A DNA stretch of 64,000 nt, from contig NZ_KN293976.1 in assembly GCF_000768555.3 (NCBI RefSeq), positions 1 through 64,000 of the forward strand, read 5' to 3'. A program made the translations under genes and the position numbers. Below the pieces are notes generated by a model. The model made no database searches. It had not been told where the DNA came from and saw only the letters and a list, made by a program, of their open reading frames with translations. Origin of the DNA: Roseovarius mucosus DSM 17069. GTDB lineage: Bacteria > Pseudomonadota > Alphaproteobacteria > Rhodobacterales > Rhodobacteraceae. The stretch's first letter is position 1. The number at the start of each line of letters is the position of its first letter. Positions 48,057-56,392 of the stretch are shown piece after piece.

Positions 48057-51000
48057 TCAGATTTCTTCGACCATCACCACGCCGGTCAGGCTCTTGATCG
48101 CGCCCTTGATCTGCGGCGTCACGGGATATTCCGCGCCGCTGTCAATCTCGACCTCGCCGGGCAGGTCCGCGCCCATCAGGCAGAAATGGATCGGGCCAGG
48201 GCGCGCACCGCGCGCGGCTTGGCTGGCGCTTTGCAAGACCGTGGCGACCGATCCAATCGCCCCTGGCTGATCCACGAAAATCCGCAAGCCGACCGCGCCC
48301 GCCCCGGCCACCATCCCGTCAATCGGCTGCACCGCGCGGCAGAGCAATTTCAACTGATCCGCCTCAAGCGTGGCCTCGGCGGTGATCACCACCTGCGCGC
48401 CGGTTTCCAGAAACTCGCGGCATTTCTCGAGCGTGTCCGAGAATATCGTCACCTCATAACCGCCGGTCGTATCGCTCAGCTGCGCAAAGGCAAAGCGGTT
48501 GCCGCGCGCCGATTTCCGCTCTTGCCGCCCGGCCACGACCCCGGCCATCTTGACCAGCGCCGGACCGCGCTCGGCCTGTGCCGTCACCTCGTCCAGCGTT
48601 TTCACATCCTGCCGCCGCAACACGGTCATGTAATCGTCGAGCGGATGCCCCGAGAGGTAGAACCCAACGGCCTTGAATTCCTCGGTCAGCCGCTCGGCAG
48701 GCAGCCAATCATTGACCGGGGCCAATCGCGGTTCAGGCAGATCATCGCCCGCCTCGCCAAAGAGCGAGACCTGGCTCGAATTCTTCTGCTCATGGATCGC
48801 CGCCGAATAGCTCATCAGTGCCTCGATGCTCTCGAACACGCGGCGGCGATTGCGGTCGAGCGCATCAAACGCCCCGGCACGGGCCAGCATTTCGAGCGGG
48901 CGCTTGCCCACCCGTTTCAGATCGACCCGCTGCGCCACATCGTAGAGCGTGGCAAAGGGCCGGTCGCCACGCCCCGTCGTGATCAGCTTCATCGCCTCGA
49001 CACCCACGTTCTTGAGCGCACCCAGCGCGTAGTGCAACACGCCATCGCGCACGTCGAACGTGGCCTCGGAGCGGTTGACGCAGGGCGCAGCCCAAGGCAG
49101 GCCCAGCCCCTTTTTCACCTCTTGGAAATAAACCGCCAGTTTGTCGGTCAGGTGAATATCGCAGTTCATCACCCCAGCCATGAACTCGACCGGGTGATTG
49201 GCCTTGAGCCAGGCGGTCTGATAGCTGACCACCGCATAGGCCGCCGCGTGGGATTTGTTGAAGCCGTAATTGGCGAATTTCTCGAGCAGGTCAAAGACCT
49301 CGCTGGCCTTTTTCTTGTCGACGCCATTCTCCATCGCGCCCTTCTCGAATTTCGGGCGTTCCTTGGCCATCTCTTCGGCGATCTTCTTGCCCATGGCACG
49401 GCGCAAGAGGTCGGCACCGCCGAGGCTATAGCCCGCCATCACCTGCGCGATCTGCATCACCTGTTCCTGATAGACGATGATGCCCTGGGTTTCCTCTAGG
49501 ATATGGTCAATCGACGGATGGATGGACTCGAGCTCACGCAGACCGTTCTTTACCTCGCAATAGGTCGGGATATTCTCCATCGGACCGGGACGGTAGAGCG
49601 CCACAAGCGCCACGATGTCCTCGATGCAGGTCGGCTTCATCCGCTTGAGCGCATCCATCATGCCGCTGGATTCCACTTGGAACACGGCGACAGTCTTGGC
49701 ACTGGCATAGAGCCGATAGGATTTCTCGTCATCGAGCGGGATTGCCCCGATGTCATATTCGAACCCTGCAGGGGGATCATAGAGCACGGTGCCATCCGCC
49801 GCCACATTCAGCGGGCGGCCCGCCTTGCGGATCATGTCCACCGCGTTCTGGATCACCGTCAGCGTCTTGAGGCCGAGAAAGTCGAACTTGACCAGTCCCG
49901 CCTGTTCCACCCATTTCATGTTGAACTGCGTGGCCGGCATATCCGAACGCGGGTCCTGATAGACCGGCACCAGCTCATCCAAGGGCCGGTCGCCAATCAC
50001 CACACCCGCGGCATGGGTTGAGGCATTGCGCAACAGCCCTTCGACCTGCTGCGCATAGGTCAAGAGCCGGTCCACGACCTCTTCATTCTTGGCCTCTTCG
50101 CGCAGGCGCGGCTCGTCGGCCAGCGCCTTTTCGATGCTCACCGGCTTCACGCCCTCGACCGGGATCATCTTGGACAGCCGGTCCACCTGCCCATAGGGCA
50201 TTTGCAGCACGCGCCCGATGTCGCGCACGGCGGCCTTGGACAAGAGCGCGCCGAAGGTGATGATCTGGCCCACCCGGTCACGGCCATATTTCTCTTGCAC
50301 ATACTGGATCACCTCCTCGCGGCGATCCATGCAAAAGTCGATGTCAAAGTCGGGCATGCTGACCCGCTCCGGGTTCAGGAACCGCTCGAAGAGCAGGCTG
50401 TAGCGCAGCGGATCAAGGTCGGTGATGGTCAGTGCATAGGCCACCAGACTGCCCGCGCCAGACCCCCGCCCCGGCCCCACCGGGATCGCGTGATCCTTGG
50501 CCCATTTGATGAAATCGGCCACGATCAGGAAATACCCCGGAAAGCCCATCCCTTCGATGATGCCCAGTTCGAATTCCAGCCGCTTTTCATACTCTTCGAC
50601 CGGGGCGGCATGGGGGATGACGGCCAGCCGGGCCTTGAGCCCCTCCCGCGCCTGACGGCGCAGTTCCTCGACCTCGTCATCGGCGAATTTCGGCAGGATC
50701 GGATTGCGCTTGTAGGCCCCAAAGGCGCAGCGGCGCGCAATCTCGACCGTGTTTTCAAGCGCCTCCGGAAGATCGGCAAAGAGCGCCGCCATCTCGTCCT
50801 GGCTTTTGAAATAATGCTGCGGGGTCAAGCGGCGGCGCGGCGCACTCTGATCGACATAGGCGCCCTCGGCCACGCAGAGCATGGCATCATGCGCCTCATA
50901 CATGTCCGATTTCGGGAAATAGACATCGTTGGTCGCCACCAAGGGCAGATCCATGGCATAGGCCATCTCGATCAGCCCACGCTCGGTCAGACGTTCGACC

Positions 51001-51557
51001 TCGGGCGCACCGCCCTCGCCGGGATGACGCTGCAACTCGACATAGAGCCGGTCGCCAAACGCCTGTGCCAAGCGCTGCATCAGCGCCTCTGCCGCCGGGC
51101 GCTGCCCGCCTTGCAAAAGACGCCCCACCGGCCCATCCGGCCCACCCGTTAGGCAGATCACCTCCCCGGCATGCCGCTCCAGCTCGTCCAGCGCCACATG
51201 CGGCAGGCTGCCGTCGCCGCGCAAGTAGAGGCACGAGTTGAGCTTCATAAGGTTCTCATACCCCTGCTCGCTCTGCGCCAGAAGAACGATGGGCGCAGGC
51301 GGTTTGGCGCGTTCACCGGGGGCAGGGCTGAGATAGGCCAGATCAACCTGACAGCCCATTATGGGCTGCACACCCGCCCCCTGCGCGCTGACGGAAAATT
51401 CGAGGGCGGAGAACATGTTGTTGGTATCGGTCACGGCCACGGCGGGCATGCCTGCGGCCACACAGAGACCCGGCAGCTTCTTGAGCCGCATCGCCCCCTC
51501 CAGCAGGGAATATTCGGTATGCACCCGCAGGTGGATGAATCGGGGATCAGTGCTCAT
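48057..51557 (-). CDS. dnaE: DNA polymerase III alpha subunit
   Basis: Replicative polymerase, 1166 residues, the normal length of DnaE1. N-terminal PHP domain (FIHLRVHTEYSLLEGAM), palm with the catalytic acidic motif MPDFDIDFCMDRREEV and GPGRGSGAGSLVAYAL, then the tandem helix-hairpin-helix region and an OB fold (VKMAGVVAGRQERKSARGNRFAF) with a C-terminal tau-binding region. The ATG at 51557 (MSTDPRFIHL) is preferred because the PHP domain begins there; a longer frame to 51680 has no supporting features. Monocistronic and divergent from xdhA. Confidence 0.95.
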   Translation of the reverse strand: MSTDPRFIHLRVHTEYSLLEGAMRLKKLPGLCVAAGMPAVAVTDTNNMFSALEFSVSAQGAGVQPIMGCQVDLAYLSPAPGERAKPPAPIVLLAQSEQGYENLMKLNSCLYLRGDGSLPHVALDELERHAGEVICLTGGPDGPVGRLLQGGQRPAAEALMQRLAQAFGDRLYVELQRHPGEGGAPEVERLTERGLIEMAYAMDLPLVATNDVYFPKSDMYEAHDAMLCVAEGAYVDQSAPRRRLTPQHYFKSQDEMAALFADLPEALENTVEIARRCAFGAYKRNPILPKFADDEVEELRRQAREGLKARLAVIPHAAPVEEYEKRLEFELGIIEGMGFPGYFLIVADFIKWAKDHAIPVGPGRGSGAGSLVAYALTITDLDPLRYSLLFERFLNPERVSMPDFDIDFCMDRREEVIQYVQEKYGRDRVGQIITFGALLSKAAVRDIGRVLQMPYGQVDRLSKMIPVEGVKPVSIEKALADEPRLREEAKNEEVVDRLLTYAQQVEGLLRNASTHAAGVVIGDRPLDELVPVYQDPRSDMPATQFNMKWVEQAGLVKFDFLGLKTLTVIQNAVDMIRKAGRPLNVAADGTVLYDPPAGFEYDIGAIPLDDEKSYRLYASAKTVAVFQVESSGMMDALKRMKPTCIEDIVALVALYRPGPMENIPTYCEVKNGLRELESIHPSIDHILEETQGIIVYQEQVMQIAQVMAGYSLGGADLLRRAMGKKIAEEMAKERPKFEKGAMENGVDKKKASEVFDLLEKFANYGFNKSHAAAYAVVSYQTAWLKANHPVEFMAGVMNCDIHLTDKLAVYFQEVKKGLGLPWAAPCVNRSEATFDVRDGVLHYALGALKNVGVEAMKLITTGRGDRPFATLYDVAQRVDLKRVGKRPLEMLARAGAFDALDRNRRRVFESIEALMSYSAAIHEQKNSSQVSLFGEAGDDLPEPRLAPVNDWLPAERLTEEFKAVGFYLSGHPLDDYMTVLRRQDVKTLDEVTAQAERGPALVKMAGVVAGRQERKSARGNRFAFAQLSDTTGGYEVTIFSDTLEKCREFLETGAQVVITAEATLEADQLKLLCRAVQPIDGMVAGAGAVGLRIFVDQPGAIGSVATVLQSASQAARGARPGPIHFCLMGADLPGEVEIDSGAEYPVTPQIKGAIKSLTGVVMVEEI

Positions 51558-51718
51558 GCATGCCACCCTAGCCCCGGCTGCGGGGGAACAAAAGACTTGC
51601 CAAAACGCCCGCCCCCGGCTTTCATCAGTCCATGACAGGCAAAGCCCGCCGCCTTCTACGCCGCATCGAAGGTCAGGCAATCCGGGGCAGACATAGGTAA
51701 CGCGGCGGGCATCGGCTC

Positions 51719-53125
51719 ATGACCCTCACGTTTCTTCTGAATGGAGAGAGCGTGGCGCTTCGGGATGTGACCCCGACGACAACCCTGCTCGACTGGCTGC
51801 GCGAGACGCGCGGTCTCACAGGCACCAAGGAAGGCTGCAACGAAGGCGATTGCGGCGCCTGCACGGTGATCGTCAGTGACGAGACCGGCGCGCGCCCGCT
51901 CAACGCCTGCATCCTGCTCCTGCCGCAACTCGCCGGGCGCGCGGTGCGCACGGTCGAAGGGGTCAGCGGCCCCGAGGGCCAGTTGCACCCGGTCCAGGAG
52001 GCGATGATCGCGCATCACGGCTCGCAATGCGGCTTCTGCACGCCGGGGTTCATCACCTCGATGGCCTGTGCGCATCTCAATGGCGAGCGGGATCACGATC
52101 GGGTTCTGGCGGGAAACCTTTGCCGCTGCACGGGCTATGCCCCGATCCTGCGCGCCGCCCGCGCCGCCGAAACCGCCCCCATTCCCGCATGGATAACCGA
52201 GGACCGCGCCGTCATCTGGCCGGAAATACCTTCGGGGGGGCCCGCAGGGCGGGGGGCAGACAGCCCCCCTTCCTCGCTGCACCCCCGATGCGCCGATGAG
52301 GCTGCGCGCCTCTATGCCGCCCACCCGCAGGCCACGCTGATCGCGGGGGCGACCGACGTGGGCCTCTGGATTACCAAGCAATTGCGCGATCTCGACCTTC
52401 CGATCTTTCTCGGGGGCTGCGCCGATCTGCGCAAGATCGACATCTCGGATACGGAGATCCGCCTTGGCGCCGGGGTTACCATCGCGGCGCTGATGCAGGC
52501 GATTGCCCCCTTTCACCCCTCCTATGCCGCGATGCTGCGGCGCTATGGCTCGGAACAGGTGCGCGCGGCGGCCACGCTTGGGGGCAATATCGCCAATGGC
52601 TCGCCCATCGGCGACAACGCCCCCGCGCTCATTGCCCTCGGGGCCACTCTGCACTTGCGCCATGGCGAGACCCGCCGCGAGATACCGCTCGAGGCATTCT
52701 TTCTCGACTACGGCCAGCAGGGCCGTGCGCCGGGTGAGATGGTCGAGGCCATCACCCTGCCCCGCCAACCCGACCGCCTGCGCTGCTACAAGATCTCGAA
52801 ACGCTTTGATCAGGATATCTCGGCTCTTCTGGGCTGCTTCAACATCACCGTGAACGAAGGCAGGATTACCGCCGCGCGGATCGCCTTTGGCGGTATGGCG
52901 GGCATCCCGAAACGCGCACAGGCGGTCGAAGCGGCACTGATTGGCCAACCTTGGACCGAGGAGACGATCACCGCCAGCCACGTGGCTTGGGCGCAGGATT
53001 TCGCGCCGCTCTCGGATATGCGCGCCTCTGCCGACTATCGCCTCGACGTGGCCCGCAACCTCTTGATGCGCTACTTTCTCGAGGATCAGGGCATCGCCAC
53101 TTCGGTTCTCGAGGTGCAACCATGA
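51719..53125 (+). CDS. xdhA: Xanthine dehydrogenase small subunit (2Fe-2S and FAD)
   Basis: Electron-transfer subunit of NAD-dependent xanthine dehydrogenase (hypoxanthine to xanthine to urate), 468 residues. First 2Fe-2S cluster: [12 protein letters not shown]; second: CGFCTPGF and CRCTGY. The FAD-binding domain begins at about residue 200 and carries [20 protein letters not shown]. Residues about 169-184, in the linker between the two domains, are encoded by a 48-bp palindromic element also found in xdhB. The order xdhA-xdhB-xdhC with overlapping stops and starts matches Rhodobacter capsulatus. Cytoplasmic. Confidence 0.94.
52223..52270 (+). repeat. 48-bp palindromic element inside xdhA
   Basis: Begins GAAATACCTTCGGGGGGG and ends GACAGCCCCCCT. 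It forms two hairpins: GCCC-GCA-GGGC, and GGGGGGC-AGACA-GCCCCCC. The reverse complement of 54270-54317 in xdhB is the same except at two positions. It is in frame and adds a Pro/Gly/Ser-rich linker segment. Confidence 0.88.
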
Positions 53126-55473
53126 CCGTCGCCCGCTCTCTGCCCCATGATGCCGCGCGTCTGCATGTGACGGGGACAGCGCGTTATGTCCACGATATTC
53201 CCAGCCCGCGCGGCACGCTGCATCTGGCCTTTGGCCTAAGCACCATTGCGGCCGGTCGCATGACCGAAATGGACCTTGCATCGGTGCGCCAGAGCGCGGG
53301 GGTCGTTGCCGTGCTGACCGCTGCCGATCTGCCACAGGGGGCCGATTGCTCGCCCTCGGCGCATGACGAGCCGCTCTTGTGCACCGGCGACGTGCATTAC
53401 CATGGCCAGCCGCTCTTTCTGGTGATCGCGACCAGTCACCTTGCCGCGCGCCGCGCCGCACGCCAAGGGCAGGTCAGTTACGAAGAAACGCCCCCCCTCC
53501 TGAGCATCGACGCGGCCCTTGCCGCCAATAGCCGCTTCGAGGAGGGGCCGCGCATCTGGCAAAGGGGCGACGCCGCCCGCGCCATCGCCGAGGCGGCCCA
53601 CACGATTGACGGCGTGATCGAGATGGGCGGGCAAGAGCATTTCTATCTGGAAGGTCAGGCCGCGCTCGCCCTGCCCCAAGAGGGGGGCGACATGGTGATC
53701 CACGCCTCGACCCAGCACCCCAGCGAGGTGCAGCACAAGGTGGCCGATGCGCTCAGTCGCCCCATGCATGCGGTGCGGGTGGAAACCCGACGCATGGGCG
53801 GCGGCTTTGGCGGCAAGGAAAGTCAGGCCAACGCCCCCGCCATCGCCTGCGCCGTCGCGGCGCGGCACACGGGCCAACCCTGCAAACTGCGCTATGACCG
53901 CGACGATGACATGGTGATCACCGGCAAGCGCCATGATTTCCGCATCACCTATCGAGCCGGTTTTGACGACACCGGCCGACTGTCCGGGGTGGAGTTCGTG
54001 CATTACGCGCGCTGTGGCTGGTCGCAAGACCTGTCGCTGCCGGTGGCCGACCGCGCCATGCTGCATGCCGACAACGCCTATCACCTGCCCGCCGTGCGGA
54101 TCGAGAGCCATCGGTTGCGCACCAACACCGCCTCGGCCACCGCCTTTCGCGGCTTTGGCGGGCCGCAGGGCATGCTGGGCATAGAGCGGGTGATGGATCA
54201 CGTGGCCCACACCCTCGGGCTGGACCCGCTCGCCGTGCGTCGCCGCAACTACTATGCGGCAAGCGCCGGAGGGGGGCTGTCTGCCCCCCGCGCTGCGCGC
54301 CCCCCCGAAGGTATTTCGGGCCAGATGAAGCCGCAGGTCACGCCCTATGGGCAGGAGGTCGAGGATTTCATCCTGCACGAGATGACCGAGCGGCTGATGG
54401 ACACCTCGGACTATGCCGCGCGGCGGGTTGCGGTGGCGGCGTGGAACGCCCGTAACCCCGTGCTCAAGAAGGGGCTCGCGCTGACGCCGGTCAAGTTCGG
54501 CATCTCCTTTACGCTGAGCCACCTCAATCAGGCCGGGGCCTTGGTCCATGTCTATCAGGATGGCTCGGTGCATCTCAATCATGGCGGCACCGAGATGGGG
54601 CAAGGCCTGTTTCAAAAGGTGGCGCAGGTGGCCGCCGCGCGCTTTGGCCTGCCGCTGGAGGCGATCAAGATCACCGCGACCGATACCGCCAAGGTGCCCA
54701 ACACCTCGGCCACGGCGGCAAGTTCCGGCAGCGATCTCAATGGCATGGCGGTCAAGGCGGCCTGTGACACGATCCGGGACCGGATGGCCGCCTGTCTGGC
54801 AGAGCGTTATGGTGGTGCGCCAGACGCGGTGCAGTTCAGCGCGGGCCATGTGCAGATCGGCACTCGGTGCCTGAGTTTTGCCGCAGCCGCCAAACTCTGC
54901 TACGAGCAGCGCATCAGCCTGTCCGCGACCGGGTTTTACAAGACGCCCGATCTGGCATGGGATCGGATCAAGGGGGAGGGTCGCCCCTTTTACTATTTCG
55001 CCTATGGTGCCGCCGTGACCGAGGTGGTGGTGGACGGGCTGAGCGGCGAGTACCGCATCCTGCGCGCCGATATCCTGCATGATTGCGGGGCCTCTCTCAA
55101 TCCCGCGCTCGACATCGGGCAGATCGAGGGCGGCTATGTGCAGGGGGCAGGCTGGCTTACGGTCGAGGAACTGGTCTGGGATGCCGCCGGGCGGCTCCGC
55201 ACCCACGCGCCCTCCACCTACAAGATCCCCGCCTGCTCGGATCGGCCCTCAGTGTTCAACGTGGCGCTGTGGGAGGGAGAGAACCCGCGCCCGACGATCT
55301 ACCGCTCCAAGGCCGTGGGCGAGCCACCCTTCATGCTTGGGATTTCGGCCCTGATGGCGCTCAGTGCTGCGGTGGCGGCGTTTGGTCCGGGCTATCCGTC
55401 GCTCGATGCCCCGGCCACACCAGAACGCGTGCTGAGCGCCATCGCACGCCAGAGGGCGCGCGCCGATGCGTGA
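53122..55473 (+). CDS. xdhB: Xanthine dehydrogenase molybdenum subunit
   Basis: Molybdopterin subunit that hydroxylates the purine, 783 residues. Landmarks: [23 protein letters not shown], the Moco-binding [13 protein letters not shown], the substrate-channel region [38 protein letters not shown], and near the C-terminus [17 protein letters not shown], where the family's catalytic Glu is expected. ATG 53122 overlaps the xdhA stop (ATGA); an upstream open frame to 52951 is spurious. Residues about 383-399 derive from an inverted copy of the 48-bp palindrome found in xdhA and interrupt the R-R-N-Y-Y...Q-x-T-P-Y-G-Q-x-V segment. Confidence 0.94.
54270..54317 (-). repeat. 48-bp palindromic element inside xdhB (inverted copy)
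   Basis: The reverse complement matches 52223-52270 at 46 of 48 positions. The two differences are partners in one stem: GCGC-GCA-GCGC here against GCCC-GCA-GGGC in xdhA, so pairing is kept. It is in frame and encodes a Gly/Ala/Arg/Pro-rich insert. Confidence 0.88.
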
Positions 55474-56392
55474 CCTTGATGATCTGCGCGCGGCCGTCGC
55501 ACGCGAGGACGTGATTGCGCGGGTTGTCATTACCTCGACCCGAGGCTCGACCCCGCGCGCCGCCGGGGCCGCCATGCTGGTCTGGCCCGGCGGGCAATCA
55601 GGTACCATCGGAGGTGGGCGGCTGGAACATGCGGCAGCAGGCGCCGCGCGCGCGCTTTTGGCCGAAGGCGCGCACGCCCGCGTGCTGCGCCAGGCGCTCG
55701 GCCCTGCCCTTGGGCAATGCTGTGGCGGGGCGGTGGTTCTGGTGATCGAGCGGTTTGACGATCACCGGGTGGAAGAGGCAGCAGAGGCGCTCACACACTC
55801 GGGTGTCTGGGCGCGGCGGATCGAACCCGGCGCAGACCGCGCCCCCCGCATGCCGTGGCAAGGGGCAGATGCCGCGATCTCATGGTCGGAGGGTTGGCTG
55901 ATCGAGCGCCTGCCGCCCCGGTATCCGGTTGTAATCCATGGCGCGGGCCATGTCGGCCGCGCCTTGGCAGACATGCTCGCCCCCTTGCCCGATCTGGCGG
56001 TGACGCTGGCGGATTCACGACCAGAGATGTTGAGCCACCTGCCCGCGTCGATAACAGCTTCGGATCATCCCCTGCGCGCGCTCGGCGATGCCCAGGACAG
56101 TGCCGCGCATATCATCGTGACCCACGATCATGCGCTGGATCTGGAGCTGTGCCACCGGCTCTTGCAACGGCCTTTCGCAGGCGCGGGATTGATCGGCTCT
56201 GCCACCAAATGGGCGCGGTTTCGGCAGCGATTGGCGGCTCTCGGGCATTCCGACGCGCAGATTTCACGCATTTCCTGCCCTATTGGCGATCCGAACCTTG
56301 GCAAACACCCGCAAGCCATTGCGCTTGGCGTGGCGGCTGCGCTACTGAAAGAACCGGGCATCAGGGCCGCAGACCGAAGGAGAACCGCGTGA
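55466..56392 (+). CDS. xdhC: XdhC, molybdenum-cofactor insertion chaperone
   Basis: Binds and matures the molybdenum cofactor for insertion into XdhB, 308 residues. The N-terminal CoxI-type part has VVITSTRGSTPRAAGAAMLV, GTIGGGRLEHAA and LGQCCGGAVVLV, with the paired cysteines conserved in XdhC. The C-terminal Rossmann part has VIHGAGHVGRALADML and IVTHDHALDLELCHRLL. The start overlaps the xdhB stop by eight bases and the stop overlaps the GTG of the transporter ATPase (GTGA), linking xanthine dehydrogenase and purine import in one transcript. Confidence 0.93.
   Translation: MRDLDDLRAAVAREDVIARVVITSTRGSTPRAAGAAMLVWPGGQSGTIGGGRLEHAAAGAARALLAEGAHARVLRQALGPALGQCCGGAVVLVIERFDDHRVEEAAEALTHSGVWARRIEPGADRAPRMPWQGADAAISWSEGWLIERLPPRYPVVIHGAGHVGRALADMLAPLPDLAVTLADSRPEMLSHLPASITASDHPLRALGDAQDSAAHIIVTHDHALDLELCHRLLQRPFAGAGLIGSATKWARFRQRLAALGHSDAQISRISCPIGDPNLGKHPQAIALGVAAALLKEPGIRAADRRRTA

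Follow-up and report, generated by a model that had tools for sequence, protein, structure and literature searches.

In-frame copies of a Rhodobacteraceae palindromic repeat, probably a mobile element, in the interdomain linkers of xanthine dehydrogenase

The genes for the two subunits of xanthine dehydrogenase (XDH), xdhA and xdhB, lie together in the 64,000-nucleotide stretch of Roseovarius mucosus DSM 17069 analyzed here (contig NZ_KN293976.1, positions 1 to 64,000; hereafter the window), and each carries, in frame and in opposite orientation, a copy of the same short palindromic element. We consider it probable that both segments represent a palindromic repeat that occurs across the Rhodobacteraceae, is likely a non-autonomous mobile element, and here sits in frame in linkers between protein domains. 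The xdh copies are not peculiar to R. mucosus DSM 17069, as many genera have the element in these linkers, and what is kept in them is the nucleic acid rather than the peptide.

Two inverted copies of one unit in xdhA and xdhB

The gene xdhA (51719..53125, + strand) encodes the small subunit of 468 amino acids and xdhB (53122..55473, + strand) the large subunit of 783 amino acids. Copy 1 of the element covers residues 165–184 of XdhA, between the Pfam domains Fer2_2 (78–147) and FAD_binding_5 (187–349), and copy 2 covers residues 383–403 of XdhB, between MoCoBD_1 (146–377) and MoCoBD_2 (425–709). The four Pfam domains of XdhA are common to all 120 homologs listed, and the top named homologs of both proteins come from Roseovarius.

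A preliminary description of this DNA had reported a 48-bp sequence in both genes, inverted in the second. Its positions and reading frame are confirmed in both proteins, and the sequence is indeed shared, but the unit is longer than 48 bp. Copy 1 (52212..52270, + strand) and copy 2 (54270..54328, − strand) each span 59 nucleotides, that is, in copy 1, the 48 bp first noted plus the head TCATCTGGCCG. The two are identical at 56 of 59 positions and have abrupt edges, with no similarity evident in the next 16 nucleotides on either side. The full unit takes in the head TCATCTGGCC, which is common to the dispersed copies described below; in copy 1, the conserved head TCATCTGGCCGGAAATACCTTC (52212..52233, + strand) has the form seen in those copies. 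Further along copy 1 lie a variable central stem-loop, GCCC-GCA-GGGC (52240..52250, + strand), and a tail hairpin, GGGGGGCAGACAGCCCCCC (52251..52269, + strand). The central stem-loop of copy 2 reads GCGC-GCA-GCGC (54290..54300, − strand). Of the three differences between the copies, one (52222) falls outside the 48 bp, and the other two (52242 and 52248) are partners in the central stem, so that the compensatory change proposed in the preliminary description is real. The tail GGGGGGCAGACAGCCCCC, with up to three mismatches, is expected 0.15 times in the window and was seen four times, which corresponds to two sites read on both strands.

A dispersed repeat family and its placement

Two exact-pattern searches of the whole 4.24-Mb genome found the xdh subtype nowhere else except for one partial head (L001). 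A looser pattern returned 41 raw places, corresponding to 33 distinct ones, two of them headless, and a stricter core gave 31 distinct copies, headed by TTCATCTGGCC-nn-AAATACCT or by some variant of this. The reversed pattern, used as a control, had no match in this genome. In a sample of 295 Rhodobacteraceae genomes, 223 contained matches (up to 158 raw matches, 69 + 89), compared with 11 matches in all for the reversed pattern. Hence, the further copies for which the preliminary description had pointed to the genome and its relatives exist in both. In a sample of the alphaproteobacterial class, five of 240 genomes had a match, namely the R. mucosus genome, one more member of the Rhodobacteraceae, and three others; outside the family this amounts to three of 237 genomes with one match each, which is not above the control (four matches in three genomes). 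A literature search found no description of this repeat among the papers listed.

The units share a layout consisting of a head (commonly TTCATCTKGCC-nn-AAATAYCY), a G-run, a middle, and a G5-6/C5-6 tail hairpin whose loop contains CAG (e.g., CAGCG, CAGAG, or CAGACAG). The middle is either a hairpin that varies in sequence but stays paired or a spacer, mostly 2 to 4 nucleotides long. Among 118 copies with a head, 78 had long middles, 75 of which were distinct, and these formed a mean perfect stem of 6.0 bp, versus 2.9 bp after shuffling. When halves were swapped between different copies (70 long middles), the mean stem was 3.65 bp.

In one genome (G110), at least 25 rows among the matches listed share a single 28-nucleotide core. 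The 17 same-core copies that were compared (L325–L341) all have AAATAC and one of two head variants, and nearly all continue into a second hairpin whose stem is variable too; their upstream flanks are otherwise unlike. A copy in another host protein was found on plasmid pORIO5 of Cereibacter azotoformans (L374 2001–2070), where a photolyase-like gene (domains PF00875 and PF03441) contains an in-frame element with full head and tail DNA. At the protein level, the C. johrii homolog (P0242) has the same peptide, and the homolog of Cereibacter sphaeroides (P0245) is 18 residues shorter and lacks the element peptide. Both the single core with unrelated upstream flanks in G110 and the insertion in the photolyase-like gene speak for spreading of the repeat.

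For the study of placement, genes were called with a simple script, a small gene finder that relied on codon usage and had been trained on the window. The sample comprised the 31 R. mucosus copies, 18 loci that came from an initial search of the family, and 80 hand-picked regions from eight genomes; the latter came from 150 rows listed, several of which represent one place, and one sampled region (L320) had already been noticed beside xdhA before sampling. Of the 31 R. mucosus copies, 28 are intergenic, two are the xdh pair, and one (L044) overlaps a gene end. The other 101 copies, 14 of which have head variants missed by the strict head test, include two that overlap gene ends (L251 and L263) and two that are gene-internal (L264 and L320), both in xdhB as judged by translation. 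Overall, four of 132 copies are gene-internal, every one in xdhA or xdhB. Where it overlaps predicted gene 3′ ends, as in these three copies, the repeat provides the final codons and may thus also give rise to C-terminal tails.

For intergenic R. mucosus copies, the nearest facing stop codon lies at a median distance of 8 bp (n = 27, with one more lacking a facing stop), and for the other headed copies at 13 bp (n = 80, with four more lacking one). Elements lie nearer the facing stop than under uniform placement (Kolmogorov–Smirnov p = 1e-8; 80 testable). Convergent gaps make up 45 of 100 element gaps versus one of 53 control gaps, and divergent gaps four of 100 versus 26 of 53, in a comparison where control gaps were at least 65 bp long and empty convergent gaps, usually shorter, are therefore underrepresented. 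Ordinary copies, then, follow stop codons within a few bases, can have either orientation, and are most often found between convergent genes. In annotated plasmids with a match, the best place has no feature in 50 of 53 records.

One idea suggested by copies that hug stop codons, mostly between convergent genes, is that the family is an immobile signal of gene 3′ ends (a bidirectional terminator or an mRNA-protecting hairpin) kept alike by selection and recombination, the xdh copies being relics of gene fusion or chance recruits. However, a U-run behind the tail was not found on the sense strand, where T makes up 0.21 of positions versus 0.18 further on and at least five T in eight positions occur in one of 112 copies. 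On the antisense side, T reaches 0.46, and weak terminator use is possible there. The identical G110 cores with different upstream flanks and the in-frame insertion in the photolyase-like gene also speak against immobility, and we regard a purely immobile signal as rather unlikely. Under the favored reading of the repeat as a mobile element, copies would be inserted or copied by a trans-acting enzyme, probably not RAYT, and would persist chiefly at the 3′ ends of genes, possibly as mRNA 3′ hairpins, and rarely in flexible protein linkers.

Pairing and concerted evolution of the coding copies

Presence of the element in xdh genes was scored in 102 family loci (12 named loci, the 30 best of 261 genomes with a match, and 60 of the next 121 listed places), the element being called present at a head score of at least 15 or a tail score of at least 13. 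Maximum scores for shuffled codons were 12 (head) and 13 (tail), and the maximum for a head on the wrong strand was 12. Of the sequences extracted, 33 of 99 xdhA linkers and 41 of 84 xdhB loops contained the element, and both copies occurred in 16 of the 48 genomes that had at least one. In xdhA, the share depended on closeness to the window, with the element in 17 of the 29 linkers of the best set, 11 of the 59 of the next, and five of the 11 from named loci; L066 and L230 share one linker. In distant XDH loci (at most 52% identity; four Rhodobacterales by title), the element was found in none of 38 xdhA and none of 50 xdhB genes. Where present, it is sense in xdhA and antisense in xdhB, in the same linkers in many genera.

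In the best 120 homologs of each protein, not all of which have the peptide, the linker peptide of XdhA reads EIxSGG...RGADSPP or relatives of this, and that of XdhB reads GGLSAPR...PPEDISGQKK. The preliminary description had proposed a comparison with Rhodobacter capsulatus for clean insertions, and none was seen: xdhA of R. capsulatus DSM 1710 (L071) contains a degenerate form, LAEISSGVRGQTAP, and the nearest solved XDH structures likewise contain degenerate forms (LAQLSSGVRGQTAP in 2W3R and GGLSAPPSPPEPI in 1JRO). We take both structures to be the R. capsulatus enzyme. In structure models, the predicted local distance difference test score (pLDDT) is below 50 at residues 169–173 and 175–182 of XdhA (model from 17 sequences) and at 381–416 of XdhB (19 sequences; 271 of 783 residues below 50 overall), which gives weak support to the idea that the xdh segments may be disordered.

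In the coding copies, pairing persists. Of 42 with a parsed middle, 35 had a long one, and in these the mean stem was 5.06 bp versus 2.77 bp after shuffling, with at least 4 bp in 31 of the 35. Nine hand-picked coding copies of one length show all four Watson–Crick pairs at one stem position; their covariation score was reached by none of 500 shuffles, and their count of doubly changed pairs by 21 of 500. The coding-copy stem covaries, and the encoded residues hence change as reverse-complement codon pairs (Val/Asp, Ala/Gly, Gly/Ala, and Asp/Val). Among 23 XdhA sequences that match RG[EAQ]-x-n-y-RG[AV]E, the x/y pair is A/G in nine, V/D in eight, G/A in two, A/S in two, D/V in one, and T/G in one, and reverse-complement codons fit 22 of these 23 pairs (20 distinct contexts); the codons behind the pairs were read only for locus rows. 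A known RNA family was rejected, as an Rfam covariance-model search of positions 51000–56000 (E up to 5) returned three matches, none overlapping the element and all below gathering scores.

Codon usage and phase were also informative on whether the segments are simply native protein linkers that resemble each other at the DNA level because of GC-rich codon use. Such a reading fits the linker peptide starting EIx that the homologs share. The codon phase nevertheless varies. In the 33 xdhA copies, the head is in phase 1 in 27, phase 0 in one, and phase 2 in one (four unparsed), and the tail is in phase 1 in 18, phase 0 in four, and phase 2 in four (seven unparsed); among the 41 xdhB copies, phase 1 holds 31 heads and 21 tails, phase 2 one head, and phase 0 three tails. 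The alanine codon of the tail peptide is GCA in 17 of 17 cases, a minority codon used for 237 of 1910 alanines across linker segments (the rows are related, and no p value is given). Shuffled codons, moreover, stay short of the head threshold, and the same sequence occurs between genes elsewhere. The dispersed noncoding copies already refute the native-linker reading, to which we give almost no credence. In the xdh copies, it is the nucleic acid and not the peptide that is kept.

On a quick xdhA tree, the distribution of the element requires 22 changes for xdhA (mean 27.8 and minimum 21 after shuffling) and 23 for xdhB (mean 28.0 and minimum 21 after shuffling); numerous gains or losses of the element in xdh genes are therefore probable. 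A phylogenetic pairs test of the co-occurrence of the two xdh copies contained just three supported pairs.

The two copies of one genome resemble each other more than copies of different genomes do. Alignment-based bounds could be set in 12 of the 16 genomes with both copies, and the similarity between xdhA and xdhB copies was 0.897 within a genome versus 0.761 between genomes (n = 12; p = 5e-5, the lowest value attainable with 20,000 permutations). The result was the same for the core only and without the near-duplicate L191 (n = 11). In seven of the 12 genomes, a copy is more similar to its counterpart in the other xdh gene than to any orthologous copy, and in L151 the two copies are identical over the unit. 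This likeness is more than a genome dialect: the R. mucosus pair has a mutual similarity of 0.93, versus at most 0.82 with the 29 other copies of this genome, none of which has the CAGACAG tail, and the corresponding values are 1.0 versus at most 0.72 (17 others) in G255 and 0.97 versus at most 0.90 (eight others) in G183. The xdhA and xdhB copies have probably been homogenised by gene conversion; short-tract conversion or template switching between members of an inverted pair 2 kb apart could produce this pattern.

The same pattern would arise if the copies were kept complementary by pairing with each other over 2 kb, in mRNA or DNA, a reading supported by their opposite orientation in carrying genomes (wrong-strand head scores of at most 12) and by the higher within-genome similarity. 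Required pairing is disfavored because so few carrying genomes (the 16 of 48 noted above) have both copies. In addition, L189 has two dissimilar copies, and conversion predicts the same similarity values. We judge mutual pairing to be very unlikely.

Origin of the repeat and its relation to known systems

Several observations weigh against the reading of the repeat as a mobile element that was inserted in xdhA and xdhB and homogenised there. First, no mobilising gene was found in a search that covered Y1_Tnp and GIY-YIG. The RAYT domain (Y1_Tnp, PF01797) is absent from the R. mucosus genome and from all 10 high-copy genomes and is present in two of 10 zero-copy genomes. Second, no target-site duplication was seen by eye in the 17 G110 copies or at the xdh edges (no formal test for one was made). 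Third, it is odd for blind insertion that all gene-internal copies are xdh copies, albeit in a small sample. Fourth, presence on the xdhA tree is scattered, so that vertical inheritance hardly shows and gains are not distinguishable from losses. Fifth, although RNA folding predictions for the xdh copies and one further copy gave stable structures (−30.5 to −33.1 kcal/mol), the energies are not unusual relative to shuffled GC-rich sequence (z from −0.5 to −1.5), so that the structural case rests on covariation. As to homogenisation, the near-identity of the R. mucosus pair is not unique, since eight of 406 pairs among the 29 other copies are as similar; in G110, the cores of the two xdh copies are closer to other copies than to one another, the xdhA core being identical to that of a copy 27 kb away and the xdhB core to those of two elsewhere; and the two copies in L189 are not concerted.

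Given its absence from the R. mucosus genome and the high-copy genomes, RAYT, for which the preliminary description had suggested looking, was rejected as the probable mobiliser. A GIY-YIG nuclease was considered as well. On plasmids of Phaeobacter, Thioclava, and Roseovarius, a GIY-YIG nuclease gene is followed by a copy after about 20 bp (L027 4001–4075, L028 3885–3954, and L029 3479–3550). This candidate was rejected, as two hits rather than one occur in four of 10 high-copy versus four of 10 zero-copy genomes, i.e., there is no association. The GIY-YIG open reading frame of the R. mucosus genome (L030 1380–1890; C1 ~222623–222841) lies amid five matches of another palindrome, CCCGGGCTTGACCCGGG, which may represent a further family of repeats associated with a nuclease of its own; within the window, no occurrence of that palindrome above chance was found. 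A phage origin was rejected too, with just short, weak matches in five mycobacteriophage records. Three IMG/VR contigs (L024–L026) carry the strict element.

The position of both xdh copies exactly between Pfam domains raises the question of whether they are functional mRNA hairpins that slow ribosomes at domain borders, for cofactor insertion or folding, with the RNA under selection and the peptide irrelevant. That coding copies keep pairing while residues change, that sites and orientations are common across genera, and that all four internal copies in the sample of 132 are xdh copies would fit this view. Domain-border linkers, however, are also the places that best tolerate insertions, no recognisable element is present in 66 of 99 xdhA and 43 of 84 xdhB genes of the family or in any of the distant XDH genes, and the folding energies are ordinary. 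We think that selection on mRNA hairpins is an improbable explanation for the xdh copies. An extended version of the mobile-element reading, in which an enzyme class new to REP-like repeats moves the element, the inverted in-frame pair has been domesticated in xdhAB and is continually rematched by conversion, pairing dictates the linker residues, and the hairpins act at domain borders during translation, is a speculative combination that we likewise hold to be unlikely.

If the mobile-element reading is correct, the xdh copies would be a novel instance in which a parasitic repeat has become protein linkers. Covariation in protein alignments that arises from nucleic acid pairing could mislead contact prediction, and the closest XDH of solved structure carries degenerate forms of both segments. 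With the xdhAB pair, gene conversion between short inverted repeats can be tested directly, and the family as a whole raises the question of which enzyme moves its copies.

Translated palindromic repeats are best known from Rickettsia, and the Rhodobacteraceae are a large, mostly free-living family. Repetitive extragenic palindromic (REP) sequences are short, imperfect palindromes that occur in high copy number between genes, 3′ of them and in either orientation, form composite hairpins, and have a conserved tetranucleotide of the GTAG/GGAG type at the hairpin foot. The preliminary description had likened the element in idea to Rickettsia palindromic elements (RPEs) and to REP sequences and bacterial interspersed mosaic elements (BIMEs), and a dispersed palindromic repeat that tolerates coding DNA and keeps its pairing is what the analysis supports.

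One review describes RPEs as palindromic repeats of about 150 bp that lie in frame in unrelated protein genes and are translated, with nearly half of the copies coding; there, QMITE2 of Coxiella is placed mostly in 3′ untranslated regions and CIR of Caulobacter between genes (PMC10969869). Judged by those descriptions, the present element is like an RPE in being in frame in XdhA, XdhB, and a photolyase-like protein (known here from open frames alone) and unlike it in its 59 nucleotides and its coding share of four in 132, all xdh. It further differs from RPEs in its Rhodobacteraceae host, in the covariation of its stem, and in the likely conversion between two copies in one operon. As a non-autonomous dispersed repeat, it resembles miniature inverted-repeat transposable elements as these descriptions present them (QMITE2, ERIC, and CIR), although in the 17 G110 copies and at the xdh edges, inspected by eye, neither a target-site duplication nor a terminal inverted repeat spanning the unit was seen. 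From an intrinsic terminator it differs in having a G+C-rich hairpin with no U-run on the sense strand. With REP sequences and BIMEs it shares the short palindrome and the many intergenic copies 3′ of genes in either orientation; unlike the REP/RAYT system, it has a head of about 22 nucleotides beside its hairpins, coding copies, and genomes, its own and 10 high-copy ones, with no Y1_Tnp/RAYT gene. Set apart from REP by the absence of RAYT and from RPEs by size and coding share, the element is RPE-like in coding DNA and REP-like between genes.

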